From positions 1 through 21,047 of IMG/VR virus record IMGVR_UViG_3300025137_000371: a stretch of 21,047 nucleotides of DNA. One strand, given 5' to 3'. How positions within the stretch are numbered: the first letter of the stretch is position 1; each line of letters opens with the position of its first letter. The notes beneath the pieces were generated by a model, which made no database searches, had not been told where the DNA came from, and worked only from the letters and a program-made list of their open reading frames with translations. The translations under genes were made by a program, and so were the position numbers. Of this stretch, positions 3,247 to 17,540 are shown piece after piece. Source of the stretch: a virus.

Positions 3247-3690
3247 TTAAATTGGTATCTCTTCATCACAGTTACGCATTACATCAGACAAACTTTGAGC
3301 TCTGTTAGGAGTTTGCTTTGCCCATAGACTATCAAGCATTTGTTCTGATGCTTCTGTATAGTCTTTTTCTTTTAATGCTTTCCACATCATTTTAAATTTC
3401 ATGACACCACCTATACCAAGTTGGAAAATCATTTCAATTATAACTTCTTTTGCTTTTTGGTGTAAGTCTAATTCACTAGTAAGAGAATTAGCATGAGATA
3501 AAGCATTGTTAAAATCAGTTTTAAATATTAAACCTAAATGCTCCTTGCTGTATTCTTTTCCTTCTTCCCAGATTTCATCACTTTTACACAGATGACCATA
3601 TCCGATTGTTTTAAATCCTAGCGAATCTTTATACACTTTTGGAACAAAACCTTCATGCAGTTTTATTCTTTCCATTAGTTCTTCGTACAT
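3247..3690 (-). CDS. Endolysin, T4-type lysozyme (GH24 muramidase)
   Basis: This 147-residue enzyme cleaves the MurNAc-GlcNAc bonds of peptidoglycan. The catalytic triad of T4-type lysozymes is present: Glu13 in HEG, Asp22 in KDSLG, and Thr28 in TIGYGH, with the spacing E-8-D-5-T close to that of T4 lysozyme. There is no signal peptide or SAR anchor, so it depends on a holin for export. A strong AAGGAG lies six bases before the ATG and overlaps the end of the preceding gene. It is slightly shorter than T4 lysozyme (164). It lies between two membrane-protein genes that look like holins. Confidence 0.92.
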   Translation of the reverse strand: MYEELMERIKLHEGFVPKVYKDSLGFKTIGYGHLCKSDEIWEEGKEYSKEHLGLIFKTDFNNALSHANSLTSELDLHQKAKEVIIEMIFQLGIGGVMKFKMMWKALKEKDYTEASEQMLDSLWAKQTPNRAQSLSDVMRNCDEEIPI

Positions 3691-8684: not shown

Positions 8685-9301
8685 TAAAATGCCTGAGTGC
8701 AACTAAAAGAGAAACCATAATTACTTGTTCTGTTTGCAGACCAACCCATTGCATCTGCATCCATTCTAAATATAGCTTTTGTTCCAGTTAATTTAACAGC
8801 AGTATCATTAGCAACTGCAGCACTAAGTGCAGGCTCAAAATGAACTGTTGCTGCACCACCAGAAGCTGTCGCTGTTGCAGAAACTAAATGTAAGGTGTTT
8901 GCTCCGTCTGCACCAATCTGTATGTAATCACCTTTGATTATTGTTCCATTATTGCTAAATCCATCTAATGCAATTTGAGTAGCAGTAGCATTGGCTGCAC
9001 CATTTGTTAAAATTGTTCCTGTCGCTGTTCCTTGTAATTGTTGTCCATCAGGATCTCCAAGCAAGAATGTGCCTTTTCTACCTCTTAATTGAGTTACAAA
9101 GACTGACCAATTATTCCAATCAGATCTTTTCATAGGTGGCAATGTAAAACTTGCTCTCCAAAGTGCATAAGGAAACTCATGTACTTGTTGTTTTCCAGTG
9201 AATGGAGATATCGTAAATCCTGACTGTCTAATTAACTCAAAATTAGATTCAGTAAATCCTGGAGTTGTTGGTAGTGATAATGGATAGCTTGGATTTGACA
9301 T
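8684..9301 (-). CDS. Distal tail / minor tail protein
   Basis: This is a 205-residue beta-rich protein. Residues 10-40 (LPTTPGF, then SPFTGKQQV) and 72-86 (LRGRKGTFLLGDPDG) are a pattern I recognise from minor tail proteins encoded just after tape measures in marine siphoviruses. From about 90 to 180 an inserted beta domain rich in Thr/Ala/Gly (QGTATGTIL, KGDYIQIG) is present. It probably forms the ring joining tail tube and tip. The ATG overlaps the tape-measure stop (TAATG), and the stop overlaps the next ATG in the same way. It does not carry the GTA gp12 (DUF2460) motifs, so the exact family is uncertain. Confidence 0.65.
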   Translation of the reverse strand: MSNPSYPLSLPTTPGFTESNFELIRQSGFTISPFTGKQQVHEFPYALWRASFTLPPMKRSDWNNWSVFVTQLRGRKGTFLLGDPDGQQLQGTATGTILTNGAANATATQIALDGFSNNGTIIKGDYIQIGADGANTLHLVSATATASGGAATVHFEPALSAAVANDTAVKLTGTKAIFRMDADAMGWSANRTSNYGFSFSCTQAF

Positions 9302-11349
9302 TAGTTATTACCTAAAGCAGATCTAAATCCGCCACCTCTTTGTTTACTATCAGCAACTGCAGTTAAAGTCTCTCTCTTAATTAAAGGCATCATATTTAAA
9401 ATTTCTGCTCTTACTGTTGGTGTAACTCCAACTGCAAAATTATTATTCTGTACAACTGTAACACCTTGTCCGCCACTCATCATACCTTTTGAATCATTTG
9501 CATTTATTATACTTCCTGCAGTTCTTGGCATAAATATTTCTGGTCCTCTTTCACCAACTAGCATAGGTTGATTGCTACCAATAGCACCACCTGATGCAGA
9601 TGCAGCAATTGGAGTATCTGAGGGTACACCTATCGCACTTGAAACTCCTCCCATAATAGCATTTTTTATTTTATCAAATATTAACATTTTAAGTATAGCA
9701 ACAGCCAAATCAGCAATAAAACTTCTTAACATGTCTTTCATTACATCTTTTAAATTTTTAGTGCCATCAATAAGACCTAATATTGAATTTTCCATAACAG
9801 TAAAAGCCTTGTCAACTGCACTTTTAACCATATTATAACTTTTCTGAAGTTGCTCTGTTGCCATTGCATGTTTTTTAACTTCTTCAACCATTTTATCAAC
9901 TGCTTCTTTTTGACTTTTACTCATTGAGTTGAATAAATCGTTACCATCTTTGAATATTGTATTAAGCATCTTTTGTTTAAACTTTAATGCTTCTAATGCT
10001 CCACCAGTCTTTCCAATCTGAATCTGTAATGATCCTTGAGTCCTTAACAATTTTCTAGTTTGTTTTTCTAATTCAACTATAATTGGTGCTTTTTCTGGTG
10101 ATATGTCTATTATTGTTGCAGGTGATCTACCTATCTGCTCTTGACTTACCATTTTCAGCAAATTGTTTAATGTTTCTGCTTCAGATTGAAGCATTTTAAT
10201 TCTTTGAAGTCCACCTGTCAGAGCATTAGGCAAAATAGCAAGTTCACCAATACTCAGCAACTGATCTAAACCACTCATAGCTTGGATCTCATCAAATCTG
10301 TCTTTGGCTTTTTTTAATGCTCTTTCTTCTAAATCAAGTGATGCTGCATTAGACAATATTGCCTTGTCTATCTCTTTTAGTCTTTCAACCAGTTCCTTAT
10401 CAGTGAAATCTTCAAATTCTTCAACAGGTATTGCTCCAGAGAAAAAATCAAGCGTGTCTGCAAACCCACGCATAAGTCTAGTTCCTGCTAGAGTCTGTTC
10501 ATTAAATAATTGAATTTTTCTATTTAACTCATCGAAAGATCCTGCTAAAGTTGCTTTCCCTCCAGATCCTGCCATCATTTCAGCAACGCCACCTGCTTGT
10601 CCTTCAATTGATGCAAGTATCATATCCATAGCTTCCAGATTTCTTCCTGTATCGCTTAAAGCATTAATCAAGTTTTTCTGAGAATCTGTGAAACTTACAC
10701 CAGATCTTCTTAACATTGATAATCCTATTCTAGGATTCTCTAATGCTTTACCTAATTGCAATACTGCTGATTTTAAATCTGTGCCTAAGATTGCTGCTAA
10801 ATCACCTGCAACTGCCATTGACCGACCGAAAGCATCACCAGTTACAGCTTTGAATGTAAGCATAACACCTGCTGCATCACGAACTTGTTGCACACTAAAT
10901 AAAGTATCTCTTGCCATTCTTTTTGAGAAATGCTCTAATTGATCTGCAGTCATACCTGCAGCCATACCAGTAGACTGAACGAGTGCTTTAAATTTCATCA
11001 TCGCCATTTCTGCTCGCATCGTAGCACCAACGAATGTTTTGAACATTGTAACTAGTGCTGCCATAGCCAAAATTAATGCACCTGCAGCAAATCCTGCACT
11101 ACCCATCAAAGCACCGAAAGAACGCATACGACCAGCAATTGGACCAAGTGGACCTTGCATTGCAGCAGTTGCAGTTGCTGCATTACTCATTCTTTTTGAA
11201 AATGCTGTTGCTGATTTGCCTGTTTTGTCCAGGCTCTTTTTCATTTTAGTGGAAGAACTCTTAACACTTGAGTCAGCTTTTTTCATCTTGGACTCAAGAT
11301 CTTTGATATCTGCTTTTATCTTTACGACTAATTCATCAATTGTAGCCAT
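9301..11349 (-). CDS. Tape measure protein
   Basis: This 682-residue protein sets tail length. The N-terminus is coiled coil (1-60), followed by a hydrophobic segment (78-110). The conserved lambda-type tape measure region around 130-230 contains LFSVQQVRDAAGVML and the stretch GDLAAILGTDLKSAVLQLGKAL. Further coiled coil fills 310-530, with a second hydrophobic stretch at 545-575. Near the C-terminus is the VGERGPEIFMP signature typical of tape measures. At about 0.15 nm per residue it implies a tail of roughly 100 nm. The ATG (11349) overlaps the stop of the chaperone extension as TAATG. Position after the chaperone pair fits the general tail gene order. Confidence 0.92.
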   Translation of the reverse strand: MATIDELVVKIKADIKDLESKMKKADSSVKSSSTKMKKSLDKTGKSATAFSKRMSNAATATAAMQGPLGPIAGRMRSFGALMGSAGFAAGALILAMAALVTMFKTFVGATMRAEMAMMKFKALVQSTGMAAGMTADQLEHFSKRMARDTLFSVQQVRDAAGVMLTFKAVTGDAFGRSMAVAGDLAAILGTDLKSAVLQLGKALENPRIGLSMLRRSGVSFTDSQKNLINALSDTGRNLEAMDMILASIEGQAGGVAEMMAGSGGKATLAGSFDELNRKIQLFNEQTLAGTRLMRGFADTLDFFSGAIPVEEFEDFTDKELVERLKEIDKAILSNAASLDLEERALKKAKDRFDEIQAMSGLDQLLSIGELAILPNALTGGLQRIKMLQSEAETLNNLLKMVSQEQIGRSPATIIDISPEKAPIIVELEKQTRKLLRTQGSLQIQIGKTGGALEALKFKQKMLNTIFKDGNDLFNSMSKSQKEAVDKMVEEVKKHAMATEQLQKSYNMVKSAVDKAFTVMENSILGLIDGTKNLKDVMKDMLRSFIADLAVAILKMLIFDKIKNAIMGGVSSAIGVPSDTPIAASASGGAIGSNQPMLVGERGPEIFMPRTAGSIINANDSKGMMSGGQGVTVVQNNNFAVGVTPTVRAEILNMMPLIKRETLTAVADSKQRGGGFRSALGNN

Positions 11350-11573
11350 TAGTCAGGAAACCTCGTCATTAAATCCTCTAACTCTTCTGTTGTTACTGGG
11401 TTGTTATCTTTCTGACCAGCGTGAAATTCATTATGACAATCCATAGCAGTTTCAAATTGCTTATAAGTCATATCCCAAAATTCAGATGGTGGAATATGCA
11501 ATATACCGACTGCTATCCCATACCATCTAGAAAATGGTAAAAATTCTATTGGTCTTGGTTCTCTTCTTGATCT
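11349..11573 (-). CDS. Tail assembly chaperone extension (GTA gp10.1-like), made by -1 frameshift
   Basis: This 74-codon frame lies -1 relative to the upstream chaperone and has no usable start codon. It is closed by TGA just upstream (11585), and the first ATG falls inside the conserved core. The product contains FSRWYGIAVGILHIPPSEFW and ends with ELEDLMTRFPD. That matches the small GTA gp10.1-type protein, with its FW motif and DLM.RFPD terminus. Together with the slippery heptamer at 11579-11573 this indicates synthesis as a fusion of about 187 residues, like lambda gpGT. The extension would bind the tape measure, whose gene follows. An indel in the assembly is the alternative, but the heptamer being in the right frame argues against it. 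Confidence 0.78.
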   Translation of the reverse strand, partial: RSRREPRPIEFLPFSRWYGIAVGILHIPPSEFWDMTYKQFETAMDCHNEFHAGQKDNNPVTTEELEDLMTRFPD

Positions 11574-11911
11574 AAAGGGCTGTCACTTGCCTCTTGCAAT
11601 CCCATTGATGTAAGTAAAACATCTGAAACGATTGTTAAGCAGTTAGAAAAACCGTGCTGTAATACCATATTGCCAACAGCTTCGTAAGTGAACTTCCCAC
11701 CTGCACCTGTTAATGCTTCATGTAAAATAACAGTGACATTATTTATACCAATGTTACCAGCACCAAAACCATTAACTATTTTCATAACAGGCTCGTTAAG
11801 TCTTGCTTCTATATTAGACAGATTTTTAAAAGTTAATTTAAACTTTCTATTTTTACCTGCAAAATTATATTCTAAAGCACCTTCTATATTATCAAATTTC
11901 TCTTGACTCAT
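11546..11911 (-). CDS. Tail assembly chaperone (GTA gp10-like)
   Basis: This 121-residue protein sits between the tail tube and tape measure genes, the fixed place of the tail assembly chaperone. It resembles the GTA TAC family: a beta-rich N-terminus (NFAGKNRKFKLTFKNLSNIE), the turn to helices at about 35-60 and a helical C-terminus, then an acidic, poorly conserved tail (DQEENQDQ). The unshifted form is the gpG equivalent that coats the tape measure before tube polymerisation. The start overlaps the preceding gene by 20 bases. Its GGAG is about 13 bases upstream, so initiation may be weak or coupled. The tail residues after Leu113 are replaced in the frameshifted form. Confidence 0.75.
   Translation of the reverse strand: MSQEKFDNIEGALEYNFAGKNRKFKLTFKNLSNIEARLNEPVMKIVNGFGAGNIGINNVTVILHEALTGAGGKFTYEAVGNMVLQHGFSNCLTIVSDVLLTSMGLQEASDSPLDQEENQDQ
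11573..11579 (-). promoter_or_regulatory. Programmed -1 ribosomal frameshift site C CCT TTA
   Basis: In the reading frame of the chaperone the codons are AGC CCT TTA GAT, so the seven bases CCCTTTA form X XXY YYZ with X=C, Y=T, Z=A. Slipping back one base lets the tRNAs re-pair with CCC and TTT. The site lies inside the overlap of the two frames (-1 frame open from 11582, zero-frame stop at 11548). The zero-frame stop is eight codons further on. No strong downstream hairpin was found by eye. Confidence 0.75.
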
Positions 11912-12197: not shown

Positions 12198-12629
12198 CTA
12201 TGCAACTGTATGAGTAATTTGACCAGAAGACTCTAATGTTAAAGAGTATGTTTCTTCGCCATTGAACTCACCAGCTCTTTCATAACTTGTTATAATGAAA
12301 TTACCAACTATGTGATCACCATCACCAAATAGAAGTTTGTAAGATTCTCTAGAGCCTTTTTGTGCTCTTGTTCTTACTTCATTTTCTACTGCTGAGTCAG
12401 TGAAAACTCCACTTGCTGTTAGTGATAAACTTCTAACACCGCCACCTTCAAGCAAATCTCTTGCTTTATCAGCACCACCTGAAACAAGTGCAGCTGAGTC
12501 TTTTGTTGTGATGTCAACAAGCTCTCCGTTTATAGTCATAGATGTAGATCGTAAACCTGCTAATGTAGTTTCACTTCCACCTGATGGCGTTGTTTTGAGT
12601 AGCAACGCACTACCTTTTTGTGCAGCCAT
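12198..12629 (-). CDS. Major tail (tube) protein, TP901-1 / GTA gp9 type
   Basis: This 143-residue protein forms the hexameric rings of the tail tube. The N-terminus MAAQKGSALLLKT, the sequence AGLRSTSMTINGELVDIT (about 24-41) with KDS after it, the GVRSLSLTASGVF stretch, and the C-terminal NGEETYSLTLESSGQI are characteristic of the GTA gp9/TP901-1 tail tube family, and the length fits. It has the strongest ribosome binding site in the window (AGGAGG, 12641-12636, six bases from ATG), as expected for a high-copy structural protein. It is also preceded by one of the few intergenic gaps, which holds a palindrome and a TATAAT box. Confidence 0.9.
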   Translation of the reverse strand: MAAQKGSALLLKTTPSGGSETTLAGLRSTSMTINGELVDITTKDSAALVSGGADKARDLLEGGGVRSLSLTASGVFTDSAVENEVRTRAQKGSRESYKLLFGDGDHIVGNFIITSYERAGEFNGEETYSLTLESSGQITHTVA

Positions 12630-14681: not shown

Positions 14682-15347
14682 TTATCCTCCTAATATATTA
14701 GAGAATCTAACTACTCTATATGGTTGTAAAAGAGTTTGCAGAGTCATAGGGACTGGTAGTTGTTTCTGTTCTATGTATAATTCTCTATTTTCATATAAAT
14801 GAGATGTGTATAATACTATTGCTTGTTTTATTGCTGATGGTACATCCTTTGGTGCTGTTCCGTAACCAGCAGTGAATGTTACAATAAAAGCATTAGCAAC
14901 TCTTAAACTAGCAACATCAGGAAAAGTTTGACTTCTTCTTAATACTATTCTTGCTGTGTCGCTGAAATTGTCTAAATAATAATTGCTTGTAGCAAAAGTA
15001 TTTTCTGTGTCAGAATCATCATAATATTTAAAGCTAGTTATAGCAACGACTGGTGCTTTTGGTAATGCTATGTAATTTTGAGTTTTTTCAATAAATGGTC
15101 CAGTGCTAAACCCTTCAACAAGTTTGTCTTCTTGGGAGTAGGGTATTCTATCAAGAGCAAAATCAAATGTTTTAGTTATAAAAGACCTACCAGTATACTC
15201 TTCTAAAATTTTGATAGAAGACTTTAACATCATGATAAGCTCAGCATCTTGATCAAAGTTATCAGGATCTATCCTTAAAGTTTGTTTGACTTCACTTAAA
15301 GTTACAGGAGTTATGTTCGTCTCTGTTGTTAGTTTTAATCCTGACAT
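14682..15347 (-). CDS. Head-tail connector protein, HK97 gp6-like
   Basis: This 221-residue, mostly helical adaptor docks under the portal. The N-terminus (PVTLSEVKQTLRID, then DQDAELIMMLKSSIKILEEYTGRSF) is the classic start of the gp6/phiE125 gp8 family: short domain, then helix with the E..TGR.f motif. Later the DVPSAIKQAIVLYTSHLYENRE helix and the C-terminal LLQPYRVVRF complete the fold. Length is normal. Its ATG overlaps the 66-residue gene stop as TAATG. The next gene downstream is the Cys-rich miniprotein and not the joining protein. Confidence 0.88.
   Translation of the reverse strand: MSGLKLTTETNITPVTLSEVKQTLRIDPDNFDQDAELIMMLKSSIKILEEYTGRSFITKTFDFALDRIPYSQEDKLVEGFSTGPFIEKTQNYIALPKAPVVAITSFKYYDDSDTENTFATSNYYLDNFSDTARIVLRRSQTFPDVASLRVANAFIVTFTAGYGTAPKDVPSAIKQAIVLYTSHLYENRELYIEQKQLPVPMTLQTLLQPYRVVRFSNILGG
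14686..14691 (-). promoter_or_regulatory. Ribosome binding site of the Cys-rich miniprotein
   Basis: AGGAGG four bases before the ATG at 14681 lies inside the last codons of the connector gene (I-L-G-G-stop). It decides that the short frame downstream is a gene. Confidence 0.75.
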
Positions 15348-15547
15348 TAGTGTATCGTTCCTTCTTCTAGTAAGTTATATTCAGTTTCATCTTCATGCAA
15401 ATTATCATCTCTTAAAGACATAAGTTGTGCTGCATAAAGACCTGCTATCATTTTATTAGGAAATCCTTTTATTTTTAAAACTATTTCCACTGCTCCTTCT
15501 TCCTCTTCTTTAATATCCATTACTGTTTTAATTTTAAATTCATCCAT
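15347..15547 (-). CDS. Small unknown protein between portal and connector
   Basis: This 66-residue acidic protein (EEEEGAVEIVLKIKGFPNKM in the first half) has no recognised family. It may be a beta hairpin followed by a helix (NKMIAGLYAAQLMSLRDD). It is separated from the portal stop by one base and coupled to the connector by TAATG, so it is co-translated with both. HK97-type clusters normally have the protease and capsid genes here, for which this protein is far too small. Confidence 0.6.
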   Translation of the reverse strand: MDEFKIKTVMDIKEEEEGAVEIVLKIKGFPNKMIAGLYAAQLMSLRDDNLHEDETEYNLLEEGTIH

Positions 15548-15548
15548 G

Positions 15549-17540
15549 TTAATTTTTCAACGGATGTCCAGATGGTAATAAATCTCTATCAAACTGTCCT
15601 GATCTAAATCTTCCTGTCCTAACAGCGAATAAAAATGCATTAACTCTAGCATATGCCCATTGCTCCTCGCTACTTACATTTGGTCTTACTGATTGTGGGT
15701 TTGTTCTGTATGCACCTATCCCTCTTCTAAACACAGCACCTAGCATTCTTACATTAACTTTCTTGCCTTTTTTCTCTCCATGCTTTTCATTGTGTTCTTT
15801 AACTTTATTTTTTAAGCCCTCTTTAACAGCAGCAGTCAATTGCTTCTCTTCATCTGTTTCTGTTACTTGAACTTCAATAACTTCTGTTTTGGACTCATTG
15901 TCTATTTGCTTAGCTTTCTTTCTAGACCAGCTGAAACCTGAATCACCACCCCAAAGCGACCATGCTATTCTTCCGTTAGAAGGATAGCCTTTCTCTCCAG
16001 GTCTAAAACCTTGTGCTTGTTTATCAACTTCATGTCTACTAAAGAAAGAAAACATTCTCTTGACAGTGCTTGGTGATAGATTTTCTTTACTAACTAGTTG
16101 ATTTGCTCTTGCTAAGCCTACCATAGTTCCACCACGACCATATTCTTTTCTCCAGTCTAAACCTTTTCTTGCTTCAGATGCCATTCCGTCTGTCGGCTTA
16201 AAATCTATATCGCTTATAGCTTTTTCATCCTGAGGATAATCATCAGTTATTTCTAAAGACTTTTCATCTTCATCATCACCAATACTCTCTCCTGCCAAGC
16301 TAATCGGCATCATAGTGGCTGATATAAACAGTGCATCTCCACCTTTTATCGGATCAAAGCCTAATTTAGACCTAGCTTCATTCCGAGTTAGTATACCAGA
16401 ATTAACTCCTTGCACTACAGAATCGAAAACTCTTTTACGACTTTCTGCCATTGCTGGTATGCTATCAATATCATACTCTAGCTTCAATCCATCACCAAAC
16501 TGAGGAGTGAGCCATTCATTTAAATCAGATTGTATTCTTCTTAAAATAGGAATAATAGTTTCTTCATAAAGTGCAAGTCTTGCTTCTGGCATATTATTAT
16601 ATGTCTGTGCATCAGGAATACCAACTAACTGTGCAGGAACTCCGAAACATAAAGCAATATCAATTGCAGCCATCTTCTTAAGAACTGAGAAGTCCATGTC
16701 TTTTGGCGACATACCCATTTGTTGGAAGTTAAAATCTCCTTCTAGCAACATAGGTCTGCCAGCATTATTAGTACCAGCAAAACGATCTTCCATGTCTTTA
16801 ATTATTTGAGATCTTTGAGTATCGCTTAACTGAACTGAAGTTCCAGTTTCGTCTTTTGGCTTGAATACAATAGCACCACTAGGTCTTGCTCCATTTTGTA
16901 ATAAAGAAACATTGTGTCTATTTGTTAAATTGTGACTGTCTATATTACTTGCAGCAGCAACCAATGGAGACATTCCTAAATAATCACTTTTAGGATGAAA
17001 TAATTTAAAATGTTTTACAGCAGACGCTCCTGTTACTTGATCAACATTGTATTGTGATATTACAGTTCCTCCTACTGAATAAGAATAAGATGCTGGTAAA
17101 TTACTTTGTCCAGGAGTTATTTTCATTCTGTCTGGTCTTAAGCAATAAAGTTCTTCAGGCACTCCATTTTCAGAGCCAGAACCTATTAAATAACTATTAC
17201 CAGATAATAGCAAGTGACAATATAAAGATTCAAATAATTCAACATAGCCTTTGGTCGGAGAAGGTCTTTCTAATAAATCTAATAAAGGATGATCTTCTAC
17301 ATTGACTTTGCCTCTAAATAGCTTTAGTTTAACACCAGCTGCACCTTGAGATATTTCATTAATGCATCTAAATGCAATAGCATTATTCTCATAACCCTCT
17401 TTGACTAATTCGTCATAATTATATCTCTGACCAGCATTGGTGTTTACAGTGTTAAGCATAGCCATACTTGAAGGATGCTTTTTAAACTCAGTATTTACAG
17501 CTGGTCTAAAGATATTTCTTATGTTGTCAAGTACTCCCAT
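15549..17540 (-). CDS. Portal protein (HK97 type) with a two-part C-terminal extension
   Basis: This is a 663-residue protein. Residues 1 to about 410 are an HK97-family portal: NNAIAFRCINEISQGAAGV near the start, the stem region, DMDFSVLKKMAAIDIALCFG with VPAQLVG, and LTRNEARSKLGFDP. It forms the dodecameric DNA channel at one capsid vertex. HK97 portals are about 420 residues. Here an acidic linker (about 412-440) leads to a second domain at about 445-530 (MASEARKGLDWRKEYGRGGT, then LWGGDSGFSWSRKKA). A third follows at about 568-660 (VFRRGIGAYRTNPQSVRP, then WAYARVNAFL and DRDLLPSGHPLKN). I recognise both as domains that recur in phage proteins, but cannot name a function. They are not an S78 prohead protease. 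The ribosome binding site AAGGAA lies about ten bases upstream. Confidence 0.88.
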   Translation of the reverse strand: MGVLDNIRNIFRPAVNTEFKKHPSSMAMLNTVNTNAGQRYNYDELVKEGYENNAIAFRCINEISQGAAGVKLKLFRGKVNVEDHPLLDLLERPSPTKGYVELFESLYCHLLLSGNSYLIGSGSENGVPEELYCLRPDRMKITPGQSNLPASYSYSVGGTVISQYNVDQVTGASAVKHFKLFHPKSDYLGMSPLVAAASNIDSHNLTNRHNVSLLQNGARPSGAIVFKPKDETGTSVQLSDTQRSQIIKDMEDRFAGTNNAGRPMLLEGDFNFQQMGMSPKDMDFSVLKKMAAIDIALCFGVPAQLVGIPDAQTYNNMPEARLALYEETIIPILRRIQSDLNEWLTPQFGDGLKLEYDIDSIPAMAESRKRVFDSVVQGVNSGILTRNEARSKLGFDPIKGGDALFISATMMPISLAGESIGDDEDEKSLEITDDYPQDEKAISDIDFKPTDGMASEARKGLDWRKEYGRGGTMVGLARANQLVSKENLSPSTVKRMFSFFSRHEVDKQAQGFRPGEKGYPSNGRIAWSLWGGDSGFSWSRKKAKQIDNESKTEVIEVQVTETDEEKQLTAAVKEGLKNKVKEHNEKHGEKKGKKVNVRMLGAVFRRGIGAYRTNPQSVRPNVSSEEQWAYARVNAFLFAVRTGRFRSGQFDRDLLPSGHPLKN

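Follow-up and report, generated by a model that had tools for sequence, protein, structure and literature searches.

How is the second of two overlapping tail chaperone frames expressed when it has no start codon of its own? The question arises in the 21,047-nucleotide stretch of DNA analyzed here (the window), a 21-kb fragment comprising positions 1-21,047 of one IMG/VR metagenomic virus record, IMGVR_UViG_3300025137_000371. An initial annotation proposed that a gp10-like frame and a gp10.1-like frame are fused by −1 programmed frameshifting, according to the lambda gpG/gpGT scheme. The features concerned are the following.

9301..11349, minus strand, tape measure protein (PF06791, E 1.1e-8; PHROG tape measure)
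11349..11582, minus strand, start-less −1 frame with a gp10.1/TAC_6-type domain (PF09550), the T-like extension
11546..11582, minus strand, 37-nt overlap of the gp10 frame and the −1 frame
11579-11573, minus strand, slippery heptamer C_CCT_TTA, in register inside the overlap and read AGC CCT TTA GAT
11546..11911, minus strand, gp10-type tail assembly chaperone (G-like product), 121 aa, zero frame, PF11836
11892..12173, minus strand, small ORF of 93 codons between the tail tube gene and gp10, without a match in family searches
12198..12629, minus strand, major tail (tube) protein (PF06199, E 3.2e-26)

The gp10-type ORF, which runs from an ATG at 11911 to a TAG at 11548-11546, matched PF11836 ('GTA-gp10') with an E value of 1.5e-12 and 47.8 bits, over the curated cut-off of 27.8. 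The −1 frame opens at 11582 after a TGA (11585-11583) and ends at a TAA (11351-11349). Profile comparison, which had been suggested as a check, identified its product as a member of PF09550 (TAC_6; E 4.3e-9, 37.1 bits over the curated cut-off of 23.4); a match to NCBIfam TIGR02216 (rcc01693, the RcGTA second chaperone family) had an E value of 2.9e-5, under that model's cut-off. The two tail assembly chaperone families thus sit in −1 register between the tail tube and tape measure genes, and the tape measure gene begins with an ATG that shares bases with the −1 frame's stop (TAATG). The overlap, its register, and the in-frame CCCTTTA were as the initial annotation had described them. The first NTG of the −1 frame does lie inside the conserved core, as had also been noted: it is codon 28, a TTG seven codons before an invariant FW. 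By arithmetic from the coordinates, 113 gp10 residues and 74 from the −1 frame give a predicted fusion of 187 residues, matching the length originally estimated. The predicted gp10 model (mean pLDDT 79.8) is helical and ordered to about residue 107, and residues 108-121, the slip-site zone, are disordered, so this zone fits the role of a linker. Fold comparison with the gp10 model gave no convincing match, and neither gp10 nor the −1 domain had a sequence match among solved structures.

Against a gene transfer agent (GTA) cluster, the only matches of window proteins were to the portal, gp6, and tail tube proteins; none was found to gp12-gp15, including the gp15 megatron. Judged by this gene content, the window is a phage carrying a GTA-like chaperone pair and not an RcGTA-type gene transfer agent. 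In tblastn searches of isolate phages, the window gp10 had no match and the −1 frame had four weak ones. The portal protein (window 15549-17540) has 663 aa, including ~260 extra C-terminal residues with a weak DUF5824 match below cut-off. Between the portal and gp6-like connector genes (window 14682-17540), we found only a 66-aa ORF and no protease or major capsid gene, an order that differs from that of HK97 or GTAs. The phage lysozyme (window 3247-3690) matched the Bartonella GTA endolysin BgtA model weakly, far below cut-off.

The CCCTTTA at 11579-11573 is the sole copy in the window on either strand. Since the TGA closes the −1 frame just before it, a slip is usable only at or after the heptamer. 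Of the 5873 codons of the window genes, 23 (0.39%) hold an in-frame canonical X_XXY_YYZ heptamer whose second triplet is A or T, and the chance of finding one in an overlap of equal size is about 4-5%. At that level, the window site by itself is unremarkable, and the case therefore rests on comparison with relatives.

Sixteen related viral contigs with an intact junction were identified, a contig present under several locus ids being counted once. All 16 retained a start-less −1 frame in the same register. In none of the 17 sequences (the window and the 16 contigs) does an NTG lie 17 or more codons ahead of the conserved FW, and every one carries an in-frame canonical heptamer within the overlap: CCCTTTG in 12 (L003-L010 and L025-L028), CCCTTTA in three (the window, L002, and L012), and CCCAAAA in two (L032 and L060). 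The alignment of related phages called for at the outset therefore found the heptamer and the missing start kept in every relative. In the gp10 bodies of these phages, canonical heptamers occupied 26 of 1759 codons, near-copies included.

The more distant relatives share 49-69% gp10 identity with the window. The slip-site proline is fixed in an otherwise variable tail, where the only other fixed residues are a Glu-Asn a few positions later. The codon preceding it encodes Ser, Asn, Leu, or Asp, yet always ends in C, although only 9.5% of window codons do. Where Leu TTR follows, the proline codon is CCT, and where Lys AAA follows, it is CCA; XXXYYYZ is preserved in both cases. This C-ending codon and the covariation of the proline codon with its neighbor indicate that the heptamer, rather than the protein, is conserved. 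Given the amino acids and the window codon usage, the four kinds of site would be canonical heptamers with probabilities of 0.034, 0.064, 0.0045, and 0.12. Multiplied over four collapsed lineages, these give ~1e-6, a figure that overstates independence as the contigs share ancestry. At the level of the alignment, this pattern shows nucleotides at the slip site kept beyond what the protein would need. In the pure −1 region, substitutions between the window and its relatives cluster at third positions of the −1 frame; against L002, for example, 4, 2, and 22 sites differ at codon positions 1, 2, and 3, respectively. This concentration argues that the frame is translated.

We also looked for accessory signals. 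For the downstream RNA of eight sequences, folds computed without pseudoknots had z-scores from −2.05 to −0.02, with no consistent fold; covariation near the slip site gave no support, and no Rfam match was found. An upstream Shine-Dalgarno-like stimulator of the dnaX type was considered and rejected: judged by eye from the alignment, GAGG is present in the window and L002 and AAGGA in L012 and L060, and such a motif is absent from L003, L025, and L032. L012 (2974-3037) has a second canonical in-frame heptamer, A_AAA_AAG, in the same overlap, 18 nt ahead of its CCCTTTA. Other sites accompany the start-less PF09550-like frames of the more distant loci L064, L061, L092, and L095: G_GGA_AAG, A_AAA_AAG, G_GGA_AAA, and, in Microcystis phage Mae-JY02, GAA_AAG with no canonical heptamer.

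The family matches and the conservation support the proposed fusion of gp10 to the gp10.1 domain. We put the probability at about 0.92 that a −1 programmed frameshift like that of lambda gpG/gpGT yields the predicted ~187-residue gp10-PF09550 product. Ribosomes would start gp10 at the ATG at 11911, and most would terminate at the TAG at 11548-11546, yielding the short chaperone. With tRNA-Pro and tRNA-Leu positioned on C_CCT_TTA, a minority would slip one base back to CCC_TTT and continue through the PF09550 frame to 11349, giving the fusion. The phage would thus very probably make a minor, longer tail-building helper by means of a few slipping ribosomes.

Three other explanations were weighed against frameshifting. 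The second frame might instead yield a separate protein, if ribosomes re-initiated close to the gp10 stop on a codon other than NTG, in most sequences ATA. In most of the phages, the TAG and this ATA do overlap, and many GTA clusters start their second gene at an ATG or GTG overlapping the gp10 stop. However, none of the 17 sequences offers an NTG before the core, and the ATA, which becomes TTA in L025 and its near-copies, simply encodes an isoleucine of the −1 frame. Re-initiation would also leave unexplained both the conserved heptamer, with its two variants each fitting XXXYYYZ, and the conserved basic stretch that the −1 frame encodes between the heptamer and the gp10 stop. We consider it very unlikely. 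Transcriptional slippage, in which the polymerase rather than the ribosome slips, would produce the same fusion, and no result of the analysis favors it. Known transcriptional slippage sites are long runs of A or T. The runs of identical bases at this site are only three long, and its CCC-YYY structure and codon register fit tandem tRNA slippage, making slippage by the polymerase very improbable. The least probable explanation, a single reading frame split by sequencing or assembly error or by gene decay, might be entertained for a 21-kb fragment from a single metagenomic virus record, but the identical split and register recur in 16 other contigs and the −1 frame evolves as coding sequence.

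The proposed programmed frameshift in the window has close counterparts. Its heptamer, CCCTTTA, is not that of lambda, GGGAAAG, and its families are GTA gp10 (PF11836) and TAC_6 (PF09550) in place of lambda G and T. The lambda gpG/gpGT frames are likewise found between the tail tube and tape measure genes in −1 register, with a canonical heptamer near the end of the first frame and a start-less second frame (PMC5009743). The lambda fusion has two binding partners: through the part it has in common with the short protein it binds the tape measure protein, as the short protein also does, and through its T part it binds the tail tube protein (PMC5009743). By analogy, the short form in this phage would coat the tape measure protein, recruitment of tail-tube subunits would fall to the basic linker and PF09550 domain that the rare form adds, and a fixed ratio of short to fused form would matter for tail assembly. 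From gene position and family membership, we infer such binding to the tape measure and tube proteins and a need for the chaperones in tail assembly. Frameshifted tail chaperones occur throughout the long-tailed phages (PMC5009743, PMC10885494; PMC3556154 for phiCbK), with exceptions that include T4-like phages (cited in PMC12846349). Genes 15/16 of Streptomyces phage OnionKnight (OQ938575) were deposited as a joined tail assembly chaperone with a PF09550 extension, as predicted for the window, although the first frame has no Pfam match to GTA gp10. With frameshifted chaperones so widespread and a joined PF09550 product already deposited, the mechanism proposed for the window is known in kind.

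The chaperones of RcGTA-type agents, in contrast, carry two gene names: g10 and g10.5 are listed as tail chaperones 1 and 2 (PMC11409702). The families and their order (g10, then g10.1/g10.5) are those of the window, whose second frame lacks its own start. The initial annotation had held that gp10 and gp10.1 remain two proteins in GTA modules. We surveyed GTA-like pairs by a PF09550 search that covered genomes from the class to which a Maricaulis MAG belongs and from two of the families in that class, and classified the junctions of 62 chromosomal alphaproteobacterial gp10/gp10.1 pairs with a recognized gp10-like ORF. The MAG was reached through L046 (IMGVR 2788500287_000027), a 22-kb contig binned in it that carries a relative of the junction. 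L046 has 33.8% G+C versus 68.3% for L080, the GTA-like locus of the same MAG, so the binning is doubtful and L046 is probably a stray phage contig.

In 32 of the 62 pairs (L096-L117 and others), the second gene starts at a codon of its own close to the gp10 stop, usually in overlap with it, and a heptamer is absent; the statement that GTAs keep two proteins holds for this class, which differs from the window in the start that overlaps the first gene's stop. It does not hold for 26 pairs that are seemingly frameshifted, in which such a start is missing and an in-frame heptamer lies near the gp10 stop. Their heptamers are CCCTTTC (18), CCCTTTT (4), CCCTTTG (3), and GGGAAAC (1); 25 of the 26 are thus CCCTTTN (L118-L134, L137-L142, L085, and L088), and the GGGAAAC of L147, 61 nt upstream, is doubtful. 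Neither pattern applied to four pairs, three with no start or heptamer (L083, L087, and L091; the ATG at the gp10 stop of L087 lies inside the core) and one, L093, with both. Own start and heptamer hardly ever occur together in a chromosomal pair (1/62), and their mutual exclusivity has a Fisher p of about 4e-13 when relatedness is ignored. Elsewhere in the surveyed chromosomal gp10 genes, canonical heptamers make up 0.07% of codons. L092, which carries G_GGA_AAA, was outside the scored pairs, its gp10 being unrecognized by the classification.

Five heptamer-bearing loci were checked, and all lie in GTA head-tail clusters, four of them complete. L150 encodes terminase, portal, capsid, gp6, gp7, gp13 hub, gp14 peptidase, and the GTA megatron gp15 (1843 bits), and its proteins match, in the same order, those of L148, L149, and L151, which have the heptamer, and of L152, which has its own start. 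The fifth, L153, matches L150 through gp12 and in parts of gp13 and gp15 and has no gp14 match; its gp13-gp15 end thus looks degraded. These CCCTTTN clusters (L148, L149, L150, L151, and L153) share with the window both families, the −1 register, the start-less second frame, and a CCCTTT-type heptamer. In these clusters the gp10.1 core (PF.W) begins right at the slip site, whereas in the window a mostly basic linker separates the two. In L148, TTT makes up 4.8% of Phe codons and CCT 3% of Pro codons; the slip site nonetheless uses CCT and, in the −1 frame, TTT.

The family of G010 contains loci of both states, heptamer and own start. Mapped on a tree of the tail tube protein, the states require five changes, and well-supported branches force two or more of these. 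We consider it likely that CCCTTTN frameshifting expresses the second chaperone in a large share of alphaproteobacterial GTAs and that lineages have switched more than once to or from an overlapping start. What was not expected is that the slip, at a site of the same type, seems to operate in many GTAs and to have been replaced by an ordinary start codon in others. No report of frameshifting in GTA tail chaperones was found in the literature searched, which consisted mostly of open-access papers. If such switching is true, particles that are otherwise homologous would set their chaperone ratio by one or the other of two means. Within one bacterial family, the survey allows expression of this protein pair to be compared between loci that rely on frameshifting and loci that rely on a start codon, so GTA producers could be used to test why a fixed G to GT ratio is needed by long-tailed phages. 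Start-less gp10.1 frames in GTA clusters can also be found and correctly annotated by this simple route. The second chaperone frame of the window has no start codon, and for this reason standard gene callers miss or truncate it, as deposited relatives illustrate: in Microcystis phage Mae-JY02 and Pseudanabaena phage Pan4, only the downstream end of the second frame is annotated.
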